From: an uncultured Bacteroidota bacterium
GTDB taxonomy: Bacteria > Bacteroidota > Bacteroidia > UKL13-3
NCBI GenBank assembly: GCA_903883965.1
Contig: CAISCU010000026.1
Span: forward strand, 1 to 48,837
Direction of reading: 5' to 3'
Length of the DNA: 48,837 nucleotides
The position numbers were made by a program, and so were the translations under genes. Below, piece after piece: positions 11,956 through 23,527 of this stretch; positions within the stretch are counted from its first letter, which is position 1, and each line of letters opens with the position of its first letter. The notes below the pieces were generated by a model. The model saw nothing but the letters and a program-made list of their open reading frames with translations. It ran no database searches and was not told where the DNA came from.

Positions 11956-13073
11956 TGTACATTGAACTGATTTGTTTGGTTCTGATTTGGGCTTATTGTG
12001 CCATTCAATTGTTGTTGTTGTACCAGCATTTTTGGCATAAAAACAAATCCCAAACAATAGAAAATCAATTGCCTGCGGTCAGCATTTTAATTCCAGCTCG
12101 CAACGAGGACAAGCATATAAATAGTTGTTTAGAAGCAATCTTTGAGTTGAATTATCCTTTGTCTCAATTGTATATTTTGGTGGGAGATGATGGCTCAACA
12201 GACAATACGTATGCTTTGGCTATAGAATGGAAAAAGCATTTCCCCAATTTTGAATGTATACAAGTCAATCAATTACATGGGAAGGCGCGGGCCAAAGCAA
12301 ATGTCATTGAACATTTGATGCAGGCTGTTCAAACAGAAATTGTATTTGTTACAGATGCAGACATTCAAGTCAATCAAAATTGGATCAAAACTTTGTTGCC
12401 CGAATTCCTAACTGCTGAAATGGTTAGTGGCATTACCATTGTAAAAGGAAATTCTTTGTTTGAATACATGCAGGGTTTTGAATGGCTCTTGGGTTTTTCA
12501 AATTTGGTAAGTTTTGAAAAATTAGGACTACCAAGTACAGCGGTTGGCAACAATATGGCCTTTACCAAAACAGCCTACTATGCTGTTGGAGGGTATGCCA
12601 ATATTGAATTTTCTGTAACGGAAGACCTGGCACTTACTCAGGCATTTCGTAAAAAAGGGTTTCAAATTAAAACAGTAATAAATGCAGAATCATTGAACTT
12701 TTCGACGGCTCAATTGCAGTTAATGGCATTGTTGCATCAGAGGAAAAGATGGCTCATAGGCGCCAAGCAACTCCCAATCATATGGAAAGCGATTTTTTTG
12801 TTACAAGCTTTCTTTATACCGGCATTGATCTTGGTTGCTTTATTTCATTTAAAATTAGCTTTGATTGTATGGTTCGTTAAATCGGTTCTACAAAGTGTTC
12901 AAATTTTATTTTTTAGCAAGCATATTGGGTTTCAAATCAAGCGGTACTTATTACCTTTGTTTATAGTTTACCAAGAATTAGTTTTATTGGCAACAGCCTT
13001 ATTTTATGTACTGCCCATACCCATGAATTGGAAACAAAGAACCTATACCAAACAAAACGAATCCATACTTTAA
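11952..13073 (+). CDS. membrane GT2 family glycosyltransferase
   Basis: This 373-residue enzyme has an N-terminal transmembrane helix (about residues 4-24), a cytoplasmic GT-A domain and two or three C-terminal helices. Processive-type GT2 motifs are present: SILIPARNE, GDDGS (Asp79-Asp80), the DAD metal site (Asp135, Asp137), TED with Asp225 as likely base, and QRKRW at 263-267. The layout resembles BcsA/hyaluronan-synthase relatives and the chitooligosaccharide synthase NodC, which fits its coupling to a NodB-type deacetylase. Two adjacent ATG codons (11952 and 11955) could each start it. The sugar and polymer are unknown. Confidence 0.85.
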   Translation: MMYIELICLVLIWAYCAIQLLLLYQHFWHKNKSQTIENQLPAVSILIPARNEDKHINSCLEAIFELNYPLSQLYILVGDDGSTDNTYALAIEWKKHFPNFECIQVNQLHGKARAKANVIEHLMQAVQTEIVFVTDADIQVNQNWIKTLLPEFLTAEMVSGITIVKGNSLFEYMQGFEWLLGFSNLVSFEKLGLPSTAVGNNMAFTKTAYYAVGGYANIEFSVTEDLALTQAFRKKGFQIKTVINAESLNFSTAQLQLMALLHQRKRWLIGAKQLPIIWKAIFLLQAFFIPALILVALFHLKLALIVWFVKSVLQSVQILFFSKHIGFQIKRYLLPLFIVYQELVLLATALFYVLPIPMNWKQRTYTKQNESIL

Positions 13074-13074
13074 C

Positions 13075-13845
13075 ATGCATTTCATAGATACACATTGTCA
13101 TTTATACGCTGAAGAGTTCAAAGAAGACCGCAAACAAGCAGTTGAAAAAGCAATTCAAAACGGTATTCAGCATTTGTTTTTACCCAATATTGATACCGCA
13201 TCCATACAGCCCATGTTGGATTTGGTTTGGGAGTATCCTTCACATTGTTTTCCAATGATGGGTTTGCACCCTTGTTCTGTAGATGTCCATGTAGATGCTC
13301 AGTTATTTCAAATTCAGAAATGGCTGAAAAAAAGAAAGTTTTATGCAGTAGGTGAAATTGGCCTAGATTATTACTGGAGTACTGAATTCAAAGAGCAACA
13401 AATTATGGCATTCAAAAAACAACTGATGTGGGCTATTCAAACAGATTTACCAGTTGTCATACATTCAAGAAATAGCAATGAAGATGTCATAGCTATTTTA
13501 GAAGAGTTGAAACACCCCAAATTGCGTGGAATTTTTCATTGTTTTGGGGGAACTCTTGAACAAGCAAAGCAATTGATTGCTCTCAATTTTTACATAGGTA
13601 TAGGAGGTGTAGTCACTTATAAAAACAGCGGCTTGGATAAAATTGTAGCAGATATTCCATTAGATAAAATTGTACTTGAAACGGATGCTCCTTATTTAGC
13701 ACCGATGCCATACAGAGGTAAAAGAAATGAGCCCTTTTATTTGATTGAAACCGCAAAAAAAGTTGCAGAAATAAAAGCAGTAGGTTTAAACCAACTCGCA
13801 AATACAACCACAGCCAATGCCAAATTGGTTTTTGGAATTGAATAG
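13075..13845 (+). CDS. TatD-family metal-dependent DNase/hydrolase
   Basis: The 256-residue TIM-barrel protein has the complete metal-site set of the TatD family: His7 and His9 (THCHLY), Glu94 (GEIGLDYY), His130 (VIHSRN), His155 (FHCFGG) and Asp204 (LETDAPYLAP). Relatives are 3'-5' exonucleases acting on DNA, with roles in repair and DNA turnover. Length is normal. It starts one base after the stop of the membrane GT2 gene, so it is probably co-transcribed, without an obvious functional link to the glycan genes. Confidence 0.93.
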   Translation: MHFIDTHCHLYAEEFKEDRKQAVEKAIQNGIQHLFLPNIDTASIQPMLDLVWEYPSHCFPMMGLHPCSVDVHVDAQLFQIQKWLKKRKFYAVGEIGLDYYWSTEFKEQQIMAFKKQLMWAIQTDLPVVIHSRNSNEDVIAILEELKHPKLRGIFHCFGGTLEQAKQLIALNFYIGIGGVVTYKNSGLDKIVADIPLDKIVLETDAPYLAPMPYRGKRNEPFYLIETAKKVAEIKAVGLNQLANTTTANAKLVFGIE

Positions 13846-13906
13846 TGCAAAATTCTGTTTCACTTTTTCATACAAATGCTTAATATTGGTTTAAAATACC
13901 AACGCA

Positions 13907-16666
13907 TTGAAAAAAAATATACTCAGCCTTTTTCTAGTTTTAACTTTATTGTGTACTCAAACCAAAGCACAATCGGTTTTAATTGGCGGAATAGTAAAAG
14001 ATGCTAAAAATTCAGAACCCATCATTGGGGCTGTTTTGACTGTTAAAAACACCAAAATAGGTGCTAGTACAGATTTTGAAGGTCATTTTCAACTCAAGTA
14101 CAATGGGGGGTTCCCGGTTGTATTGGTTGTGAGTTATATGGGTTATCAAACCGATGAAGTGAATTTGATCAAAGCCAGTACCGATTTGGTTGTTAAAATC
14201 AAACAAGATGCCAAGCAACTCAAAGAAGTGAATGTGCGAGATTCTCGCATTACCGAAAAACAAAAGCAGGCACCGCTAACAATTGAAACCATGGATGCCT
14301 TGGCCATTAAACAAACCCCAGCAGCAAATTTTTATGAAGGTTTGGCTCACCTCAAAGGGGTTGACATGACCAGTGCCAGTATTGGATTTAAAATTATCAA
14401 TACCAGGGGGTTTAATAGTACCTCGCCAGTTAGGTCCTTGCAACTCATTGATGGAGTTGACAACCAAAGTCCTGGATTGAATTTTTCTTTGGGTAATTTT
14501 TTAGGCGCCAGTGAATTGGATGTGCAAAAAGTGGATTTAGTTGTAGGCGCCAGTGGTGCCTATTATGGACCAAATGCCTTTAATGGTGTCATTAATATGC
14601 AAAGTAAAAATCCGTTTTTGTTTCCTGGCTTGAGTATACAAACCAGAATTGGAGAACGAGAGTTAATTGAAACCGCTGTTAGATATGCCGAAATTTTAAA
14701 ACCCAATAAATTGGCGTTTAAACTGAATGTATTTAGCATGTCTGCTTTAGATTGGCAGGCCAGAAATTATGATGCCACCACACAATCTCCTGTTGGGGTG
14801 AATAACCCCGGAGGCTATGATGCAGTAAATATTTATGGCGATGAATATTCTAACTCAAGGTTTCGTCAAACTGGATTGTCTTATTTGGGTTATGGTTATG
14901 CCTTGAGAAAAGGCTACAAAGAAGATGATTTGGTTGATTACCACACCAAAAATTTAAAATTGAATGCAGCGTTTCACATCCGTTTTAAAAATGAGAAAGA
15001 ATTGATTCTAGCCTCTAGTATGGGGAATGGAACTACCATTTACCAAGGCGATAACCGATTCAGTTTGAAAGACATTTACTTTTTTCAAAATAAAATTGAG
15101 TTCAGAAAAGAGAACCATTATTTTGTGAGGGCCTATGCTACCCATGAAGATGCAGGCAAAAGTTTTGATGCCTATTCAACCGCATTGCTTTTGCAAAATG
15201 CTGCAAAATCCGATAACAACTGGGCTGCAGACTATGCAGAAAATTGGAACCGTTTTATTTATAACCGCATACAAACCATTCGGCCAAAAATTGGAACCCA
15301 ACCAGCTGGTGTCAGATACGAAGATTATGCCAACCAATACATGCAAGAAAAATTTGCAGATTCATTGAACTATTACCATTGGCTGACCAATCAAATAACC
15401 GATACATCTTACTCCAGTACTAGAGGTGGTAACGACAGGTTAATACCAGGAACTACTGCATTTAACGAGGCTTACCAATCAATCATTTCAAGAACCAACC
15501 GCGAAGGTGGATCCCGCTTTTTTGACAAATCAGCCTTGTACCATGTGATGGGCGAATACCAAAGTATAGTAGCCGGGAACATTGTAAAAGTTGGTGCTAA
15601 TTTTAGGCTGTATGCACCTTTTTCAAAAGGCACCATATTTTTAGATACGGTTCCAAATCAACGCATTTACAACCACGAATTTGGAGCTTATATAGGCATA
15701 GAAAGAAAAGACTTGGACGACCACCTTAAAACGAGTTTTACTTTGAGAGCAGACAAAAACCAAAATTTCAATTTCCTATTTTCACCAGCTGCCACCATGG
15801 TTTATGCCAATCAGGCACATGTGCTCAGAATATCAGTTTCTTCTGCCATTCGCAACCCTACGCTCACCGATCAATACATCAACTTAAATGTGGGCAGGGC
15901 TGTTTTACTGGGTAATTTAAACGGGTTTGACAGTTTGGTAACCATTCCTTCTATGTTAGATGCTTTTAACAATGGCAGAGACAAACTGAGCTATTTCAAT
16001 GTGGATCCCATTCAGCCTGAGCAAGTAAAAACAATTGAACTGGGTTACAGAACCAATTTTACCGATAAATTTTATGTAGACATGAGTTGGTATTATAGCT
16101 GGTATACACATTTTATTGGCTACAAAATTGGGGCTGACATTGATTGGCCAGTTGGTACATTTTTGCCAAACGGATTGCAAGTGTACAGAGTGGCAACCAA
16201 TTCTAAAGATGCAGTTACCACTCAAGGTTTTACCATTGGGCTCAATTATTACCTCAAAAAATACCTGGGTTTTGTTGGTAATTATTCTTGGAATAAATTG
16301 GATAGGATGGGCTCTACAGACCCACTTATTCCGGCATTCAATACCCCTGAACATAAATACAATATTGGCATCAATGGTCGTGACATAGACTTGAATTTTT
16401 TTAATCAGGCTATGAATGGTTTTGGTTACAGTGTCAATTGGAAATGGCAAGAAGGTTTCAATTATGAAGGCTCTCCACAATACACAGGTTCAGTTCCTGC
16501 CTATGGTATGTTAGATGCTCAACTGAATAAATCTTTTTTGAAACAAAAGTTGAGTGTGAAAATAGGTGCCAGTAACCTCTTAGATAACCGTGTTTACCAA
16601 GTTTATGGTGGGCCAAGGGTAGGCAGAATGGGTTATATCAGCATTTTGTTTGAATTGAAAAAGTAA
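13907..16666 (+). CDS. TonB-dependent outer membrane receptor with carboxypeptidase-regulatory-like domain
   Basis: The 919-residue protein starts with a Sec signal peptide ending TKAQ. A CarboxypepD_reg-like beta-sandwich follows (about residues 25-110, with IIGAVLTVKNTKIGASTD and SYMGYQTDEV). Next come a plug domain (about 115-225, with QLIDGVDNQSPG and ASGAYYGPNAFNGVINM) and a 22-strand-type barrel ending in the aromatic-terminated strand ISILFELKK. It imports an unidentified ligand with energy from TonB-ExbBD. The start codon must be TTG at 13907: an in-frame TAA lies at 13892 and the signal peptide begins at that codon. There is no SusD partner. The next gene encodes a secreted hydrolase-fold protein, so the two may share a substrate, but this is inference. 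Confidence 0.9.
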   Translation: MKKNILSLFLVLTLLCTQTKAQSVLIGGIVKDAKNSEPIIGAVLTVKNTKIGASTDFEGHFQLKYNGGFPVVLVVSYMGYQTDEVNLIKASTDLVVKIKQDAKQLKEVNVRDSRITEKQKQAPLTIETMDALAIKQTPAANFYEGLAHLKGVDMTSASIGFKIINTRGFNSTSPVRSLQLIDGVDNQSPGLNFSLGNFLGASELDVQKVDLVVGASGAYYGPNAFNGVINMQSKNPFLFPGLSIQTRIGERELIETAVRYAEILKPNKLAFKLNVFSMSALDWQARNYDATTQSPVGVNNPGGYDAVNIYGDEYSNSRFRQTGLSYLGYGYALRKGYKEDDLVDYHTKNLKLNAAFHIRFKNEKELILASSMGNGTTIYQGDNRFSLKDIYFFQNKIEFRKENHYFVRAYATHEDAGKSFDAYSTALLLQNAAKSDNNWAADYAENWNRFIYNRIQTIRPKIGTQPAGVRYEDYANQYMQEKFADSLNYYHWLTNQITDTSYSSTRGGNDRLIPGTTAFNEAYQSIISRTNREGGSRFFDKSALYHVMGEYQSIVAGNIVKVGANFRLYAPFSKGTIFLDTVPNQRIYNHEFGAYIGIERKDLDDHLKTSFTLRADKNQNFNFLFSPAATMVYANQAHVLRISVSSAIRNPTLTDQYINLNVGRAVLLGNLNGFDSLVTIPSMLDAFNNGRDKLSYFNVDPIQPEQVKTIELGYRTNFTDKFYVDMSWYYSWYTHFIGYKIGADIDWPVGTFLPNGLQVYRVATNSKDAVTTQGFTIGLNYYLKKYLGFVGNYSWNKLDRMGSTDPLIPAFNTPEHKYNIGINGRDIDLNFFNQAMNGFGYSVNWKWQEGFNYEGSPQYTGSVPAYGMLDAQLNKSFLKQKLSVKIGASNLLDNRVYQVYGGPRVGRMGYISILFELKK

Positions 16667-16695
16667 ACAGATAATAAGCAATCCATTTCTTTTGT

Positions 16696-16724
16696 TTGTT
16701 TTATAGTTTTTTACCACTATCTTG
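16696..16724 (+). promoter_or_regulatory. candidate promoter for the T9SS-exported hydrolase-like gene
   Basis: TTG at 16696-16698 and TATCTTG at 16718-16724 are separated by 19 bases, the spacing of the Bacteroidota consensus; the -7 box lacks one T of TAnnTTTG. The predicted start near 16731 would leave a leader of about 16 bases before the ATG at 16747. Confidence 0.4.
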
Positions 16725-16746
16725 AATAAAATTTAAATTTTCAATC

Positions 16747-18663
16747 ATGAAGAAAAAATTACTCTCCGTTTTTGCTTTGGTTACATCAATGATAGCATTG
16801 AATGAAGCAACTGCACAAAATCGTTATTTAGATGAAGTGTTTACCTCAGTAAACAAAAGCAGCAATGTGGTTTATGATACCAACTATGCCATTAATTTAT
16901 TGTATGGCAATCCAAACCCACTAATTCCTGCTCCTTTTACTTCTTCTCCAGTTTGGAGCGAAAAGTTAAAATGCGATATCTACAGCCCAGAAGGAGATAC
17001 TTTACAAAACAGACCAGTAATTATTTTATCACATACCGGTAGTTATTTGCCACCATTGGTAAACAAACAAACTACTGGAAGCAAAGACGACAGTGCGCTT
17101 GTAGAATTGGCTAACAGATTTGCGAAAAGAGGATATGTAGTAGTAGCCATGAACTACAGATTGGGATGGAACCCAGCTGCAACTTCACAAGAAGTAGCTA
17201 CAGAACAATTGATCAAAGCAACTTATAGGGCTTTACAAGACATGAGAAATTGTGTGCGTTTCATGAGAAGAAATGCGGCTACTTACGGCATTGATCAAAC
17301 TAAAATTATTTTTGGTGGACAAGGTACAGGTGGTTACATCGCACTTGCGGGTGCAACTGTTAGCACTAGAGCAGACATTGAATCAAATATTAAATTTTTA
17401 AGAGGAGATGCTTCACCTATGGTGAGTGTTGATACACTTGGAGATTGGACAGGTATTGGCGGAGGTTTTCCTTACAATGACCCTGCTGATGCAAGTGTTG
17501 CTTCAGACGTAAATATGTTCTTTAATTTTGGTGGTGCAATGGGTGATACAGCTTGGATGAAATCATCTAGCTTGCCTATGGTTGCCATGCATACTACTAG
17601 AGATCCTTTTGCGCCTTACCATACCGGTAACGTAATTGTACCAACTACAGGGTTAACAGTTATTCCAAATGCTTCTGGAGCTGGAGATGTTATTCCTAAA
17701 GCAAATGGTTTAGGCGTAAACGATAAGTTAAATAGCTATATTTACTTAGACCCTATGAGTGATAGAGCCAATACTGTAACAGGTAGAATCAATAACTTAT
17801 TTGGTTTTGAAACTTCATTCCCATACGAAGGTTCACCTTGGGAATGGTGGGACAGACCAAGTATGCAAGCCAAACAAACCATATTGTATAGAGATGCCAT
17901 TCCATTACCAGCTAGTGGTTATATATCAGATTCATTGTCAATGTTGACCAATCCTTTTATGTCAGCAGAAAGAGGTAAAGCTTATATTGATACCATTGTT
18001 GGTTATGTAGCTCCTAGAATTGCTGTACAAATGGACTTAATGGGAAATATGGAAATCAATGATTTTCCATTGGCTTCGCCAATGAATGGTGCTTCTATAG
18101 ACATACATGATGATACTGCTGCTTTTATGGTAGCAAAATGGCAGGCAACTCAAGGTTTGGATTATGTTTTCATGATCGACAACGTGAATGGAGATTTCTC
18201 TGATCCATTATACAGTACTTCAGTAAGTTCAGATTCAATTGCGTTCACAGAAAGCATGATTTGGACATTGCTAACAACTATGGGTTACAATGTAGACCAA
18301 GAAGTTAGTTTAAAATGGACAGTGATGGCTAAAAACAGTGCATTTGGTAAAATGGCTGCACAAGCATTTGTAATTAATTTAACTAAACGTGCTGCAGTTG
18401 GAATCAACGAAGCCAGTTACAATAAATACATTACTTTGTATCCAAATCCAGCTACTTCAAGTATTAAAGTAGGTTTAGATGCATCGGCTAAAATTACACA
18501 CATCCAAATCATCGATATTTTGGGTCGTCAAGTAAAATCTTTTGCAGGTTTCAATACCAATTCTCAAGAAATTTCATTGAACGGAATTGGTTCTGGAGCT
18601 TATTTTATCAATATCAGCACTCAAAATGGCGGTACTGCCACAAAGAAATTTATCATTCAATAA
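16747..18663 (+). CDS. T9SS-exported alpha/beta-hydrolase-fold protein lacking the serine nucleophile
   Basis: The 638-residue protein has a Sec signal peptide (cleavage after ATAQ, near residue 24) and an alpha/beta-hydrolase domain of the carboxylesterase type (about residues 65-320, with VVVAMNYRLGWNP and ALQDMRNCVRFMRRNA). A long middle region follows, then a type A T9SS sorting domain in the last 80 residues (YPNPATSS, DILGRQV, GAYFINI, ending KKFIIQ). The usual nucleophile elbow GxSxG reads GQGTG here (within FGGQGTGGY, near residue 198), so glycine replaces the catalytic serine. A likely acid residue is still visible in HTTRDPFAPY. It is secreted to the cell surface or medium; it may bind rather than cleave its ligand, or use another residue. 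Confidence 0.82.
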   Translation: MKKKLLSVFALVTSMIALNEATAQNRYLDEVFTSVNKSSNVVYDTNYAINLLYGNPNPLIPAPFTSSPVWSEKLKCDIYSPEGDTLQNRPVIILSHTGSYLPPLVNKQTTGSKDDSALVELANRFAKRGYVVVAMNYRLGWNPAATSQEVATEQLIKATYRALQDMRNCVRFMRRNAATYGIDQTKIIFGGQGTGGYIALAGATVSTRADIESNIKFLRGDASPMVSVDTLGDWTGIGGGFPYNDPADASVASDVNMFFNFGGAMGDTAWMKSSSLPMVAMHTTRDPFAPYHTGNVIVPTTGLTVIPNASGAGDVIPKANGLGVNDKLNSYIYLDPMSDRANTVTGRINNLFGFETSFPYEGSPWEWWDRPSMQAKQTILYRDAIPLPASGYISDSLSMLTNPFMSAERGKAYIDTIVGYVAPRIAVQMDLMGNMEINDFPLASPMNGASIDIHDDTAAFMVAKWQATQGLDYVFMIDNVNGDFSDPLYSTSVSSDSIAFTESMIWTLLTTMGYNVDQEVSLKWTVMAKNSAFGKMAAQAFVINLTKRAAVGINEASYNKYITLYPNPATSSIKVGLDASAKITHIQIIDILGRQVKSFAGFNTNSQEISLNGIGSGAYFINISTQNGGTATKKFIIQ

Positions 18664-18681
18664 ATTTTAATTTTTTATAAG

Positions 18682-18715
18682 AAAAGCTGGCAAACCTTGG
18701 TTTGCCAGCTTTTTT
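18682..18715 (+). terminator. rho-independent terminator after the secreted hydrolase-like gene
   Basis: A perfect 15-bp stem (18682-18696 with 18699-18713) with a 2-base loop contains the core AGCTGGCAAACC and runs into a T-tract on the plus strand. It lies 18 bases after the stop at 18663. The -33 box of the next promoter begins directly after it at 18717. Confidence 0.88.
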
Positions 18716-18716
18716 G

Positions 18717-18746
18717 TTTGTTTCAATGAGCAAACGCTTATCTTTG
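18717..18746 (+). promoter_or_regulatory. promoter of the metal efflux operon, exact Bacteroidota consensus
   Basis: TTTG at 18717-18720 and TATCTTTG at 18739-18746, 18 bases apart, match the TTTG/TAnnTTTG consensus exactly. Transcription should begin at about 18750-18755, almost on top of the first possible start codon of the next gene, which implies a leaderless or very short-leader mRNA. Confidence 0.6.
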
Positions 18747-18750
18747 ATAG

Positions 18751-19143
18751 GTGAATCTTTTGAAACAAATCATATTTAAGTTCATGTTGTTTGCATTGCT
18801 GGCAAATGCGGTTAAACCCGATTTGCTCCTGCAATTGTCTAAAATACCCAGTTTGGTGGCTCACTACCATCACCATGTAAATGACGAAAATGAGCAAATT
18901 GGTTTCCTAGATTTCTTGGCATTGCATTATGGTCAAAATTCTACCCATCGCTCTGCTGAAAATCACGATGATTTACCTTTGTTTTTAAACAGTACCGCCT
19001 GTTTTGTGTTGATTTCAAATGCATTGGTTTCACCAGATTTGGCTATCCATTGTATTAGTTATGTGCAACCATTTTTTGCCTACACAGATTTTTATTCTTT
19101 TGATAAATTGACTTCTATTTTTCAGCCTCCTCAATTTGTTTGA
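18751..19143 (+). CDS. small histidine-rich exported protein of a metal efflux operon
   Basis: The longest form has 130 residues from a GTG at 18751; a TTG at 18760 gives a more typical signal peptide (MKQIIFKFM...). After the signal segment there are scattered potential metal ligands: the HYHHH cluster at 38-42, His59, His66, His72, His100, and cysteines 84 and 101. I do not recognise a named family. Small His-rich proteins of this size often precede CusA/CzcA-type pump genes in this phylum, which suggests periplasmic metal binding or sensing. It is followed after 43 bases by the pump gene and preceded by a consensus promoter. The function is inferred from composition and context only. Confidence 0.62.
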   Translation: MNLLKQIIFKFMLFALLANAVKPDLLLQLSKIPSLVAHYHHHVNDENEQIGFLDFLALHYGQNSTHRSAENHDDLPLFLNSTACFVLISNALVSPDLAIHCISYVQPFFAYTDFYSFDKLTSIFQPPQFV

Positions 19144-19186
19144 GGTTTTGTTTTGCTGATTCATATTCATTCAATTTAATTTTAAC

Positions 19187-22100
19187 ATGCTAAAAAATAT
19201 CATCGGATTTTCGGTCCGAAATAAATTACTTATAGGTGCAGGTGTACTGTTATTAATTGTAACAGGTATTGTACAATTTACAAAACTACCCATTGATGCG
19301 GTGCCTGATATTACCAATAATCAGGTTCAGGTAATTACCGTGTCGCCTTCTTTAGGAGCTCCAGATGTAGAACGGCTCATTACTTTTCCAATAGAGCAAG
19401 CCAATAGCAATATACCAGGATTAATAGAAATCAGGAGTTTTTCGAGATTTGGTTTGTCATTGGTAACATTGGTTTTTAATGATGAAACCGATGTGTATTG
19501 GGCTCGCCAACAAGTGAGTGAAAGGCTCATCAATGTAAAAGACCAAATACCTGCTGGCTCTGGAGTACCCAGTTTAGGTCCGGTTACAACAGGATTAGGA
19601 GAAATATACCAATACGTACTTCGTCCTAAACCAGGTTACGAATCTAAATACGATGCCATGCAGCTCAGAACTTTACAAGATTGGATTGTAAGAAGACAAT
19701 TACTTGGAATTAAGGGAGTAGCCGATGTTAGTAGTTTTGGTGGTAAACTCAAACAATATGAAATTGCCATTGATGTTAACAAATTAAGTGCATACAAACT
19801 CAGTATCAATGAGGTGTTTTCGGCGCTCAATACTAACAATCAAAATACAGGAGGTGCGTATATAGAAAAAGGCCCATCTGTTTTATTTATTAGAAGTGAA
19901 GGCTTGATCCAGTCTTTAGAAGACATAGGCAACATTGTTGTAAAAGAATCAGCCAATTCAAGCCCAGTGTTTATTAGAGATATTGCAGCAGTAGGGTTTG
20001 GACATGCCGTTAGGTACGGGGCCATGACTTACAATGGTGGCGATGAAGTTGCTGGTGCTGTGGTAATGATGTTAAAGGGAGAAAATTCCAATACTGTTAT
20101 CAAAGAGGTTAAACAGAAAATAGCAAGTATTCAAGAAATTTTACCTGAAGGTGTTTTGATAGAACCGTTTTTAGACAGAACTAAAATGGTGAACAATGCC
20201 ATTGGTACTGTTCAATCTAATTTATTGGAAGGAGCACTGATAGTTATTTTTGTACTTGTACTGTTTTTAGGGAATTTGAGGGCAGGTTTATTGGTTGCAT
20301 CTGTTATTCCATTGGCCATGCTTTTTGCAATTATCATGATGAATGTATTTAAGGTGAGTGGCAATTTAATGAGCTTAGGTGCACTTGATTTTGGGTTGAT
20401 TGTAGATGGGGCTGTTATTATAGTAGAAGCAGTGTTGCATGGCTTACAAGTGCAAGCCATTGCGCAACCCGGAATACAATTGAGCAAAGAACAAATGAAT
20501 TTGAATGTAAAAAGTTTGGCCAGTAAAATGATGAACAGTGCGGTATTTGGTCAAATCATTATTCTGATAGTGTATTTGCCAATTTTTTCACTATCAGGAA
20601 TTGAAGGCAAGATGTTTAAACCAATGGCTCAAACAGTAGCATTTGCTTTACTAGGCGCATTCCTACTTTCGCTTACTTATGTTCCTATGATGTGTGCCTT
20701 ATTCTTAAAAAGCGAACAGGTAAATCCCAAAAGTATTTCTGAAAAATTAATGAGTAGTTTGAACGCCTTTTTTGCTAAAAAATTAGCACAGGCCATGCAC
20801 TACTCAAAACAATTGATTTTGGGGTCGTTTGTATTGTTTGTTTTAGCACTGGTTGTTTTGTTTCAAATGGGGGGTGAATTTATTCCTGTTTTAGAAGAAG
20901 GTGATTTTGCGGTAGAAACAAGAATATTAACAGGTTCCAATTTGCAATCGAGTATACAAATTGCTAATCAGGCATCACAGCTATTGACAGCAAAATTTCC
21001 GGAAGTAGAAAAAGTGGTTGCCAAAATAGGGAGTGGAGAAATTCCAACCGATCCTATGCCTATAGAAGCCATGGATTTAATGGTCATTATGAAAGACAAG
21101 TCAACATGGAAAAATGCCAAAACATTTCCTGAAATGTCAGAAAAAATGTCACATGAATTGGCAAGTATACCTGGAGTAAATTTTGGATTTCAGTATCCGG
21201 TACAGATGCGTTTCAACGAATTGATGACTGGAGCCAGACAAGATGTGGTTTGTAAAATATTTGGAGAACACCTTGATTCATTAGCCAATTATGCAAAACA
21301 ATTAGGTGCCATAGTAAGTAAAGTAGATGGGGCCAAAGACATTTATGTAGAAGTAGTAACTGGTATGCCACAAATAGTCATCAAATACGATAGGCAAAAA
21401 ATAGCACAGTTTGGCTTGTCGGTAGAAACCATCAATACCTGTGTAAATGCTGCTTTTGCTGGCCAAAATGCAGGCTTGGTTTTTGAAGGTGAAAAAAGAT
21501 TTGATTTGGTTGTTCGATTAGAAAAAGAAAAAAGAAACAGTTTAGATGATGTTAGAAATTTATTAATCCCAAATAACAAGGGAGTTGATATTCCATTGTA
21601 CCAAGTGGCCAATGTTGATTTGCAAGAAGGTCCTGCTCAGATTCAAAGAGAAGATGCCAAAAGAAGAATCATGGTTGGCTTCAATGTAAGGGGTAGAGAT
21701 GTACAAACGGTAGTGCACGAATTACAAGAAAAAGTAAAAAAACAATTGAACTTATCTCCGGGTTACTATGTCAATTTTGGAGGGTCATTCGAAAATTTAG
21801 AAGAAGCCCAATCAAGGTTGTTGATTGCCGTTCCTGTGGCTTTGTTGTTGATTTTACTGATGTTGTATTTAACATTTGGTTCAATGGTTCAAGGCCTGCT
21901 CATTTTTACAGCCATTCCTTTGTCTGCAACAGGAGGAATATTTGCCTTGGCACTCAGAGGCATTCCTTTTTCTATTTCTGCAGGCGTAGGGTTTATAGCA
22001 TTGTTTGGTGTTGCAGTATTGAATGGAATTGTCTTGATCAGTGAATTTAACAGGCTCAAAGAGGGATCCGAATTGGATATCAAAGCGCTCATTTTAAAGG

Positions 22101-23527
22101 GTACCCAAAATAGATTGCGGCCTGTACTCATGACTGCGTTTGTTGCATCACTAGGGTTTTTACCTATGGCATTGAGCAACGGGGCAGGAGCGGAAGTGCA
22201 AAGACCATTGGCAACTGTTGTCATCGGGGGCTTGCTGTTTGCTACCTTTTTAACCTTGTTTTTATTGCCACTCATGTACATGACCGTTGAAAAAAAGAAG
22301 TTTAAAATGAATAGCTCAAAAGCAGTTATTGCACTTTTATTCGGAACCTTATTCAGTATTGGAATTCAAGCGCAAACCCCAAGTGTAATGAAGCTTAGCG
22401 CTGCAATTGATACCGCTTTATCTAACAACTTGCAATTCCGTAACGACCACTTGTACTTGCAATACCTAACGGCAATTAAAAAGTCTAGTTTGTCTGTTCC
22501 CAATACCAGTTTGAATGTAGAATACGGCCAGTTCAATTCGGCATTTAAAGACAACCGCATTGGTTTGACTCAAAATTTTCAATCTCCACTAACGCTTGTT
22601 AAACAACATCAGTTGGCAGCAACTGCCATTAAAGCCCATCAGTTTCAATTAAAATGGAAAGAAAATGAACTCAAACAAGCAGTAGCCAGTTCCTATAATT
22701 TGATTTTTTTGCTCTCCAAAAAAATACATATTTGGAATGAAGCTGATAGCTTGTACCAATTGTTTTTAGACAAAGAAGTATTGAGAACTCAATTGGGCGA
22801 ATCCGCCATTACTGCATTAACCCATGCACAAATTCAAAAAGTACATGCGGCCAAAGAAATACTGAACCTGACCAACAATTTACAATCCGAAAAATTGTAT
22901 TTACAGTATTTGTTAAATGCACTTACAACCATTGAGCCAGATACAAGTGACTGGAATTTTCAGCTCAATGAGCAAGTATTCTTGTACAACACAGCATTCC
23001 ATCCTAAAATCAAAGAGCAAGCCCAATTGGTTCAGGTAGGATTGAAACAATACCAATTGGAAAAATCAAAATTTAGCCCTGACTTTCAATTGGGTATTCA
23101 GTCTGTTACCATACAAGGTATAGGGGCCGACAACCAAAATTATGGATTACAAACGCGTTTCAATTCAGTTCAGGCTGGACTTCAATTTCCCCTGTTTTTT
23201 GGCAGTCAATTGCAGCAAACAAAAGCTAAAAAAATAGCCTATAAAATGGCTCAACAAACGCTCATCAATCAAACACATGAGCTTGCCAATCAATTCAAGG
23301 TATTGCTAGCTAGTTACCAATCTGCTAAACAAATCAATCAATTGTATAGCCAAATCCAACAGCACAAACAACTCATATTCACAAGTAAAGAATTGTTCGA
23401 AAAAGGAGCAATTGATTTTTTAGATTTTAGTTTGTTAATGGGAAATGCCATTACCAATGAATTAGAGGCATTGGATGCCAAATTTCAACTCAATCAAACC
23501 ATTATTCAATTAAATTATTTTCAATAA
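19187..23527 (+). CDS. CusA/CzcA-family heavy-metal RND efflux pump fused to a TolC-like outer membrane factor
   Basis: The 1,446-residue polypeptide begins with a complete heavy-metal RND pump (about residues 1-1035). Transmembrane helix 4 carries the proton-relay set Asp401, Asp407 and Glu414 (DFGLIVDGAVIIVE), the pattern of CzcA. The periplasmic segment RFNELMTGARQDV is also CzcA-like. The second half (about 1065-1446) is a TolC/CusC-like outer membrane factor. Between them, residues 1041-1063 (MNSSKAVIALLFGTLF...) look like a signal peptide ending in QAQ. The reading frame is continuous across the junction. Fusions of this length are known in Bacteroidota. It should expel divalent or monovalent metal ions with the adaptor encoded next; which metal is undecided. 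Confidence 0.9.
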   Translation: MLKNIIGFSVRNKLLIGAGVLLLIVTGIVQFTKLPIDAVPDITNNQVQVITVSPSLGAPDVERLITFPIEQANSNIPGLIEIRSFSRFGLSLVTLVFNDETDVYWARQQVSERLINVKDQIPAGSGVPSLGPVTTGLGEIYQYVLRPKPGYESKYDAMQLRTLQDWIVRRQLLGIKGVADVSSFGGKLKQYEIAIDVNKLSAYKLSINEVFSALNTNNQNTGGAYIEKGPSVLFIRSEGLIQSLEDIGNIVVKESANSSPVFIRDIAAVGFGHAVRYGAMTYNGGDEVAGAVVMMLKGENSNTVIKEVKQKIASIQEILPEGVLIEPFLDRTKMVNNAIGTVQSNLLEGALIVIFVLVLFLGNLRAGLLVASVIPLAMLFAIIMMNVFKVSGNLMSLGALDFGLIVDGAVIIVEAVLHGLQVQAIAQPGIQLSKEQMNLNVKSLASKMMNSAVFGQIIILIVYLPIFSLSGIEGKMFKPMAQTVAFALLGAFLLSLTYVPMMCALFLKSEQVNPKSISEKLMSSLNAFFAKKLAQAMHYSKQLILGSFVLFVLALVVLFQMGGEFIPVLEEGDFAVETRILTGSNLQSSIQIANQASQLLTAKFPEVEKVVAKIGSGEIPTDPMPIEAMDLMVIMKDKSTWKNAKTFPEMSEKMSHELASIPGVNFGFQYPVQMRFNELMTGARQDVVCKIFGEHLDSLANYAKQLGAIVSKVDGAKDIYVEVVTGMPQIVIKYDRQKIAQFGLSVETINTCVNAAFAGQNAGLVFEGEKRFDLVVRLEKEKRNSLDDVRNLLIPNNKGVDIPLYQVANVDLQEGPAQIQREDAKRRIMVGFNVRGRDVQTVVHELQEKVKKQLNLSPGYYVNFGGSFENLEEAQSRLLIAVPVALLLILLMLYLTFGSMVQGLLIFTAIPLSATGGIFALALRGIPFSISAGVGFIALFGVAVLNGIVLISEFNRLKEGSELDIKALILKGTQNRLRPVLMTAFVASLGFLPMALSNGAGAEVQRPLATVVIGGLLFATFLTLFLLPLMYMTVEKKKFKMNSSKAVIALLFGTLFSIGIQAQTPSVMKLSAAIDTALSNNLQFRNDHLYLQYLTAIKKSSLSVPNTSLNVEYGQFNSAFKDNRIGLTQNFQSPLTLVKQHQLAATAIKAHQFQLKWKENELKQAVASSYNLIFLLSKKIHIWNEADSLYQLFLDKEVLRTQLGESAITALTHAQIQKVHAAKEILNLTNNLQSEKLYLQYLLNALTTIEPDTSDWNFQLNEQVFLYNTAFHPKIKEQAQLVQVGLKQYQLEKSKFSPDFQLGIQSVTIQGIGADNQNYGLQTRFNSVQAGLQFPLFFGSQLQQTKAKKIAYKMAQQTLINQTHELANQFKVLLASYQSAKQINQLYSQIQQHKQLIFTSKELFEKGAIDFLDFSLLMGNAITNELEALDAKFQLNQTIIQLNYFQ

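Follow-up and report, generated by a model that had tools for sequence, protein, structure and literature searches.

A predicted T9SS-exported esterase homologue lacking its nucleophile serine and catalytic histidine, paired with a TonB-dependent receptor in Bacteroidota

The closest described systems are BtuB-BtuG, which takes up vitamin B12, and XusA-XusB, which takes up xenosiderophores, both from Bacteroides; in each (PMC10404256 and PMC13142918, respectively) a surface lipoprotein with a shown ligand is dedicated to a TonB-dependent transporter. The pair considered here would share with BtuBG and XusAB the plan of a receptor and a dedicated surface partner, deduced in this case from linkage and co-retention. 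The partners in BtuBG, XusAB and SusCD are lipoproteins, whereas the candidate partner described here has an esterase fold and a T9SS tail, and its signal peptide, read by eye, has no lipobox Cys. The two genes occupy positions 13907-18663 of the window, by which is meant the whole 48,837-nucleotide stretch of DNA from an uncultured Bacteroidota bacterium that was analysed; with moderate confidence they are considered to act together as an uptake unit of the outer membrane, the pseudo-esterase catching the ligand of the receptor. The features of both genes are collected in Table 1.

Table 1. Features of the receptor and pseudo-esterase genes, with positions in the window
Feature	Position	Strand	Remarks
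TonB-dependent receptor (CarboxypepD_reg-like domain, plug, barrel)	13907..16666	+	Pfam; directly upstream of the pseudo-esterase
Pseudo-esterase ORF, predicted T9SS export	16747..18663	+	638 aa; translation, Pfam, alignment, model
Signal peptide, aa 1-24, ends TAQ	16747..16818	+	Read by eye from the translation
Alpha/beta-hydrolase domain, aa 26-433	16822..18045	+	BD-FAE aa 76-290; model residues 35-433 align at Z 23.4
Lengthened oxyanion loop, aa 96-116 (HTGSYLPPLVNKQTTGSKDDS)	17032..17094	+	Longer than in aligned Ser-bearing paralogues
Nucleophile elbow GQGTG, aa 191-195, Gly193 replacing Ser	17317..17331	+	DNA gga caa ggt aca ggt
Asp286, triad-acid position, kept	17602..17604	+	D in 115/117; aligned with HGxxDxxVP of esterases
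Lost catalytic His position, aa 335-336 (Asp335-Pro336)	17749..17754	+	Aligned column 336
Family-specific insertion, aa 337-410, with PWEWW (364-368)	17755..17976	+	Not present in the 11 closest Ser-bearing paralogues
SusE-like domain, aa 439-526	18061..18324	+	Pfam SusE E 6.7e-6
T9SS type A sorting domain, aa 564-637	18436..18657	+	Por_Secre_tail E 1.1e-14 (Pfam)
Terminator-like hairpin, 16 pairs, after the pseudo-esterase gene	18680..18715	+	Consensus scan: 6 sites found, 3.4 expected in region

The pseudo-esterase matches the BD-FAE family (Pfam PF20434) with an E of 7.1e-18 and 65.3 bits against a cut-off of 26.8, and its AlphaFold2 model, built on a 14-row alignment with a mean pLDDT of 74.9, superimposes on Thermogutta esterase 2 with a Z of 23.4 and an rmsd of 2.5-2.6 over 233-234 residues; on these two grounds the carboxylesterase fold proposed in an earlier note on this DNA is upheld. 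The pLDDT falls below 50 in loops 99-110 and 369-403 of the model, which lie in the two rebuilt loops discussed below. COesterase (PF00135) scores 24.9 bits in the window protein, below its Pfam cut-off of 27, and is matched at E 0.001 or better in six of the 14 members of set A1; the SusE-like domain is also detected in six of the 14, and none of the NCBIfam equivalogs reaches its cut-off. At the C-terminus both Por_Secre_tail and TIGR04183 score above cut-off, and a T9SS tail is present in all 14 A1 members scanned. SprA, the only T9SS part searched, is encoded in the window’s genome (2488 bits). The signal peptide and Por_Secre_tail confirm, at the level of sequence, the T9SS export signal that had been claimed, and the protein is predicted to leave the cell by Sec and T9SS and to be located at the surface. 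Two family ORFs, L149 (1159 aa) and L150 (847 aa), are unusually long and carry extra sequence behind the esterase domain.

Homologues were collected by a search of the order, in which orthologues and Ser-bearing paralogues were pooled and 61 of 64 genomes matched at E 1e-8, and by a search of a class sample, in which 176 of 395 genomes matched at E 1e-30; 15 further loci came from a contig search, and extra stretches were fetched. The total is 136 distinct ORFs, 117 of which constitute the family (BLAST E under 1e-60), while the remaining 19 carry GxSAG. The HVP motif of the catalytic His is kept in the 11 nearest Ser-bearing paralogues; a search of the other eight with the HVP-type pattern gave no match. 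In a phylum sample, whose share outside the class is unstated, seven of 296 genomes matched at E 1e-60 and all seven belong to the window’s class.

The earlier note had read GQGTG in place of GxSxG, and the alignment agrees: the motif falls onto the elbow of solved esterases and of the Ser-bearing paralogues, and the codon at 17323-17325 encodes Gly193 where GxSxG has Ser. The nucleophile column of the 117 family ORFs holds 109 Gly, five Asn, two Ala and one Ser; because Gly, Asn or Ala stands there in 116 of them, Gly193 is not a matter of chance or of a read error. The catalytic His is lost as well, which goes beyond what the earlier note described. Column 336, which adjoins an insertion, holds Pro in 55 rows, Ala in 29, Val in 19, other residues in 12 and gaps in two, with no His, and a His anywhere in 323-345 is found in 12 of 116 family rows. 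A true elbow elsewhere in the protein was considered and rejected, given the position of GQGTG on known elbows and the lack of His at the base position in all 117 rows (two of them gaps); the alignment was also inspected for an intact Ser-His-Asp triad elsewhere, the finding that would have overturned the claim, and none was found. A DH string resembling the His motif occurs in one of the 117 ORFs (L132), away from the base position. The loss of both Ser and His from the triad is thus well supported by the alignment, and the protein is presumably inactive as a hydrolase. Other hydroxyl residues near the site are widely kept, namely S116 (112/117) and S406 (99/117), and there is some chance that one of them has a role; the acidic residues D115 (117/117) and D335 (110/117) are widely kept as well. 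Residue 194, beside the lost nucleophile, is Thr or Ser in 116 of 117 family ORFs and Ala in all 19 Ser-bearing paralogues, so a new role for this hydroxyl is possible; in one member, L134 (GFAAG), residues 193 and 194 are both Ala.

The difference between Ser and non-Ser elbows appears to have arisen once. A quick tree of 101 rows, which leaves out ORFs shorter than 300 aa and copies more than 99.5% identical to the query and retains one in four of those more than 53% identical, places a single change there (SH-aLRT 99); a careful tree of 57 rows, for which eight distant paralogues with Ser were additionally removed and the remaining non-Ser rows were thinned by taking out every second one, agrees (97/95; 96% of bootstrap trees), and the elbow columns are included in both. 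The single Ser-bearing family member, L156, branches as the sister of every other member sampled and likewise lacks the His motif; this combination would fit an order in which His was lost first and Ser second. An AU test does not reject the grouping of L156 with the Asn members (p 0.14), so a reversal to Ser is possible in this member.

The two loops that have been rebuilt around the former active site are longer than those of the Ser-bearing paralogues aligned and are well conserved within the family. Conservation is 0.691 in the oxyanion loop and 0.658 across the former active-site loops, a set of the analyst’s own choosing, vs 0.518 in the rest of the domain, and none of 362 circular shifts is as high. 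W365 of the inserted PWEWW is kept in 114 of 117 family ORFs, as is Q24 at the end of the signal peptide. Compared with two near orthologues, the dN/dS of the whole gene is 0.059/0.649 and 0.084/0.921, and that of the loops is 0.029/0.637 and 0.034/0.867; by these values purifying selection is acting on the pseudo-esterase. The glycine-keeping clade that had been suggested as a check is found, and its former active-site loops stand above the rest of the domain in conservation; conserved loops together with low dN/dS are what a binding pseudoenzyme, and not a decaying gene, would show. The loss of Ser and His and the conservation of the loops support the reading of the protein as a pseudoenzyme or binding protein, with ligand binding the predicted function.

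The TonB-dependent receptor ends 80 bases before the pseudo-esterase, and the consensus scan found no terminator-like site between the two genes. Its orthologue is the same-strand upstream neighbour of 57 of the 71 family members that lie in loci longer than 6000 bases. In Membranihabitans marinus (L051), a culturable environmental carrier, the pseudo-esterase gene likewise comes immediately behind that of the receptor. Among the other 14, three are second copies located behind another family member (L055, L125, L132), two have the receptor directly downstream (L126, L128), and nine have other neighbours; all nine of these genomes (G075, G104, G109, G127, G160, G239, G240, G398, G436) hold a receptor orthologue elsewhere. 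At 11 receptor loci apart from the pseudo-esterase an alternative partner was sought, and no esterase-domain match was found at E 0.01; one ORF at these loci gave a weak match, in the T9SS tail only. Full-length receptor partners are 45-89% identical to that of the window, and paralogues 31% or less. The receptor scores 78.9 bits against TIGR04056 (SusC/RagA), below the cut-off of 368; its model (mean pLDDT 60) is placed by Foldseek nearest FepA, followed by Cir, PirA and BtuB, an order that is no more than a hint at this confidence, and a PDB sequence search gave four weak N-terminal matches. In this low-confidence model residues 422-527 (window 15170-15487) are helical and are flanked by a strand on either side; they may be an extracellular loop on which the partner could dock. 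Regulatory sequences were sought in 51 regions upstream of the receptor, where a Fur consensus matched no better than in single-base shuffles (five each) and the top 8-mers are all A/T-rich, and in a riboswitch check with Rfam over 13000-19500, which gave nothing at gathering scores; neither of the two points to a ligand. Behind the pair, at 19187-23527 of the window, lies a 1446-aa ORF whose translation reads like an RND metal efflux pump fused to a TolC-like protein.

Receptor paralogues of about 30% identity adjoin the gene of a T9SS-tailed protein of about 300 aa at eight loci (L157, L158, L159, L161, L162, L163, L164, L165). Five of the eight proteins match the tail of the window protein, and all eight are alike by eye; in the majority of cases the next protein, roughly 970-1020 aa long, resembles in its translation a sensor that ends in a cyclase or a histidine kinase.

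The two genes also occur together across genomes. In the 395 class genomes both are present in 165, the pseudo-esterase only in 11, the receptor only in five and neither in 214, at cut-offs of 1e-30 for the pseudo-esterase and 1e-130 for the receptor (Fisher p 5e-90, a value that ignores shared ancestry). Two of the 11 pseudo-esterase-only genomes, G365 and G384, do carry an adjoining receptor, split into two ORFs, and three more (G092, G254, G302) sit near the 1e-30 cut-off. In the order, 62 genomes were covered by both searches; read by eye, 53 have both genes, eight have neither and one, G041, which is 65% complete, has the receptor only. Genome G062, one of the eight with neither gene, has no pseudo-esterase orthologue and contains a receptor orthologue with four internal stops (L166, G062:C1:290088-301368). 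In genus g8 the genes are unlinked, either on different contigs or apart on one (by about 150 kb in G037 and about 8 kb in G042), and both are kept in nine of the ten genomes, the tenth being G041. Retention together when unlinked, and loss together, speak more strongly for a joint function than neighbouring positions do by themselves, and the pairing of pseudo-esterase and receptor is well supported by the genomes compared. The link to the upstream receptor had been a guess in the earlier note; it proves stronger than guessed, at 57 of 71 members linked and 165 of 395 genomes with both genes, and a shared ligand would be consistent with it.

The preferred reading is that an esterase fold lost its nucleophile Ser and general-base His long ago while the acid Asp stayed, and that two insertions rebuilt the active-site loops, which were afterwards held constant. 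The protein would be exported by Sec and then by T9SS to the surface, where its former active site may bind a ligand, probably some small molecule that resembles the esters cleaved by the live paralogues, for transfer to the TonB-dependent receptor in the manner of the BtuG or SusD lipoproteins; ligand binding, complex formation and uptake are the steps we infer. A small ligand is slightly favoured over a glycan, because the receptor lies below the SusC/RagA cut-off and small-molecule receptors come out closest to its poor model. In family f61 there are three genomes (L118, L120, L124) in which the receptor, the dead esterase and a live esterase (GSSAG) follow one another on one strand; the live paralogue behind the dead one is a hint of an ester-bearing ligand. 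This guess rests on other genomes, since the genome of the window has no close live paralogue of the pseudo-esterase. More broadly, T9SS-sent and long-inactivated esterases may be a new class of accessory to TonB transport, acting as the catcher or lid of one receptor subfamily across the class, to which a live neighbour would add cutting in some genomes; this generalization is put forward tentatively, with somewhat less than even confidence.

Other explanations have to account for the same conserved loops and the same receptor. The protein may instead bind proteins, as a bacterial counterpart of the neuroligins engaged in adhesion or cell contact, with the linked receptor serving a separate task. 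Neuroligins lack the catalytic Ser, many adhesins are exported by T9SS, and neuroligins are among the PDB entries matched by the profile of the family (neuroligin-4, E 6.8e-6); however, the best-kept loops, as chosen by the analyst, are those of the old active site and not of the outer face, and an adhesin role would not explain why a single subfamily of TonB receptors is retained alongside, so this explanation is considered unlikely. An enzyme with altered chemistry, the product of which is imported by the receptor, is rather improbable: T/S194, or a metal held at Asp286, Asp335 and Asp115, would be the candidates, and all of them are kept (116, 115, 110 and 117 of 117, respectively), but T194 lies one place past the elbow position, no His stands at the base position, and L134 has Ala at both 193 and 194. 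We know of no esterase with such altered chemistry.

The receptor could also act on the T9SS product itself, retaining, processing or recycling the protein or its peptide, with no small ligand shared between them. The combination of a receptor and a T9SS product does recur, as receptor paralogues are paired with another kind of T9SS-tailed protein; this nevertheless leaves a rebuilt and conserved active site unexplained, and there is only a slight chance that it is correct. Decay or artefact, whether the gene is a pseudogene, the sequence is in error or a normal esterase has been misread, is extremely unlikely, as dN/dS is low and the same feature is shared by 116 of the 117 ORFs, which come from many assemblies; no support for it was found.

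A search of the open-licence literature (titles and the starts of abstracts) found no paper that deals with the pair or with an inactive esterase exported by T9SS. Each element is already known by itself, namely the fold with its Pfam family, the T9SS tail, and the arrangement of a receptor with a surface partner; their combination, not found in the searches made, would be new. If the uptake unit is real, the TonB uptake machines of Bacteroidota draw on dead enzymes for their binding components, and T9SS, besides lipoprotein export, supplies such components; annotation from Pfam alone would return “esterase”, a wrong functional prediction repeated across many genomes. The pseudo-esterase has the fold and Pfam family of BD-FAE (bifunctional feruloyl/acetyl xylan esterase, PF20434; PMC8165983), however it is without the nucleophile Ser and the catalytic His and has two active-site insertions. 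Its Ser-bearing paralogues (L081, L118 and others), which are 25-33% identical, have the same layout of signal peptide and T9SS tail; they differ in keeping GxSAG, in the HVP His motif of the 11 nearest, and in their shorter loops. Neuroligins and other cholinesterase-like adhesion proteins likewise have an esterase fold without the catalytic Ser, and are reached from the family by the PDB profile match; they are animal membrane proteins, whereas the pseudo-esterase is bacterial, linked to a receptor and below the COesterase cut-off.
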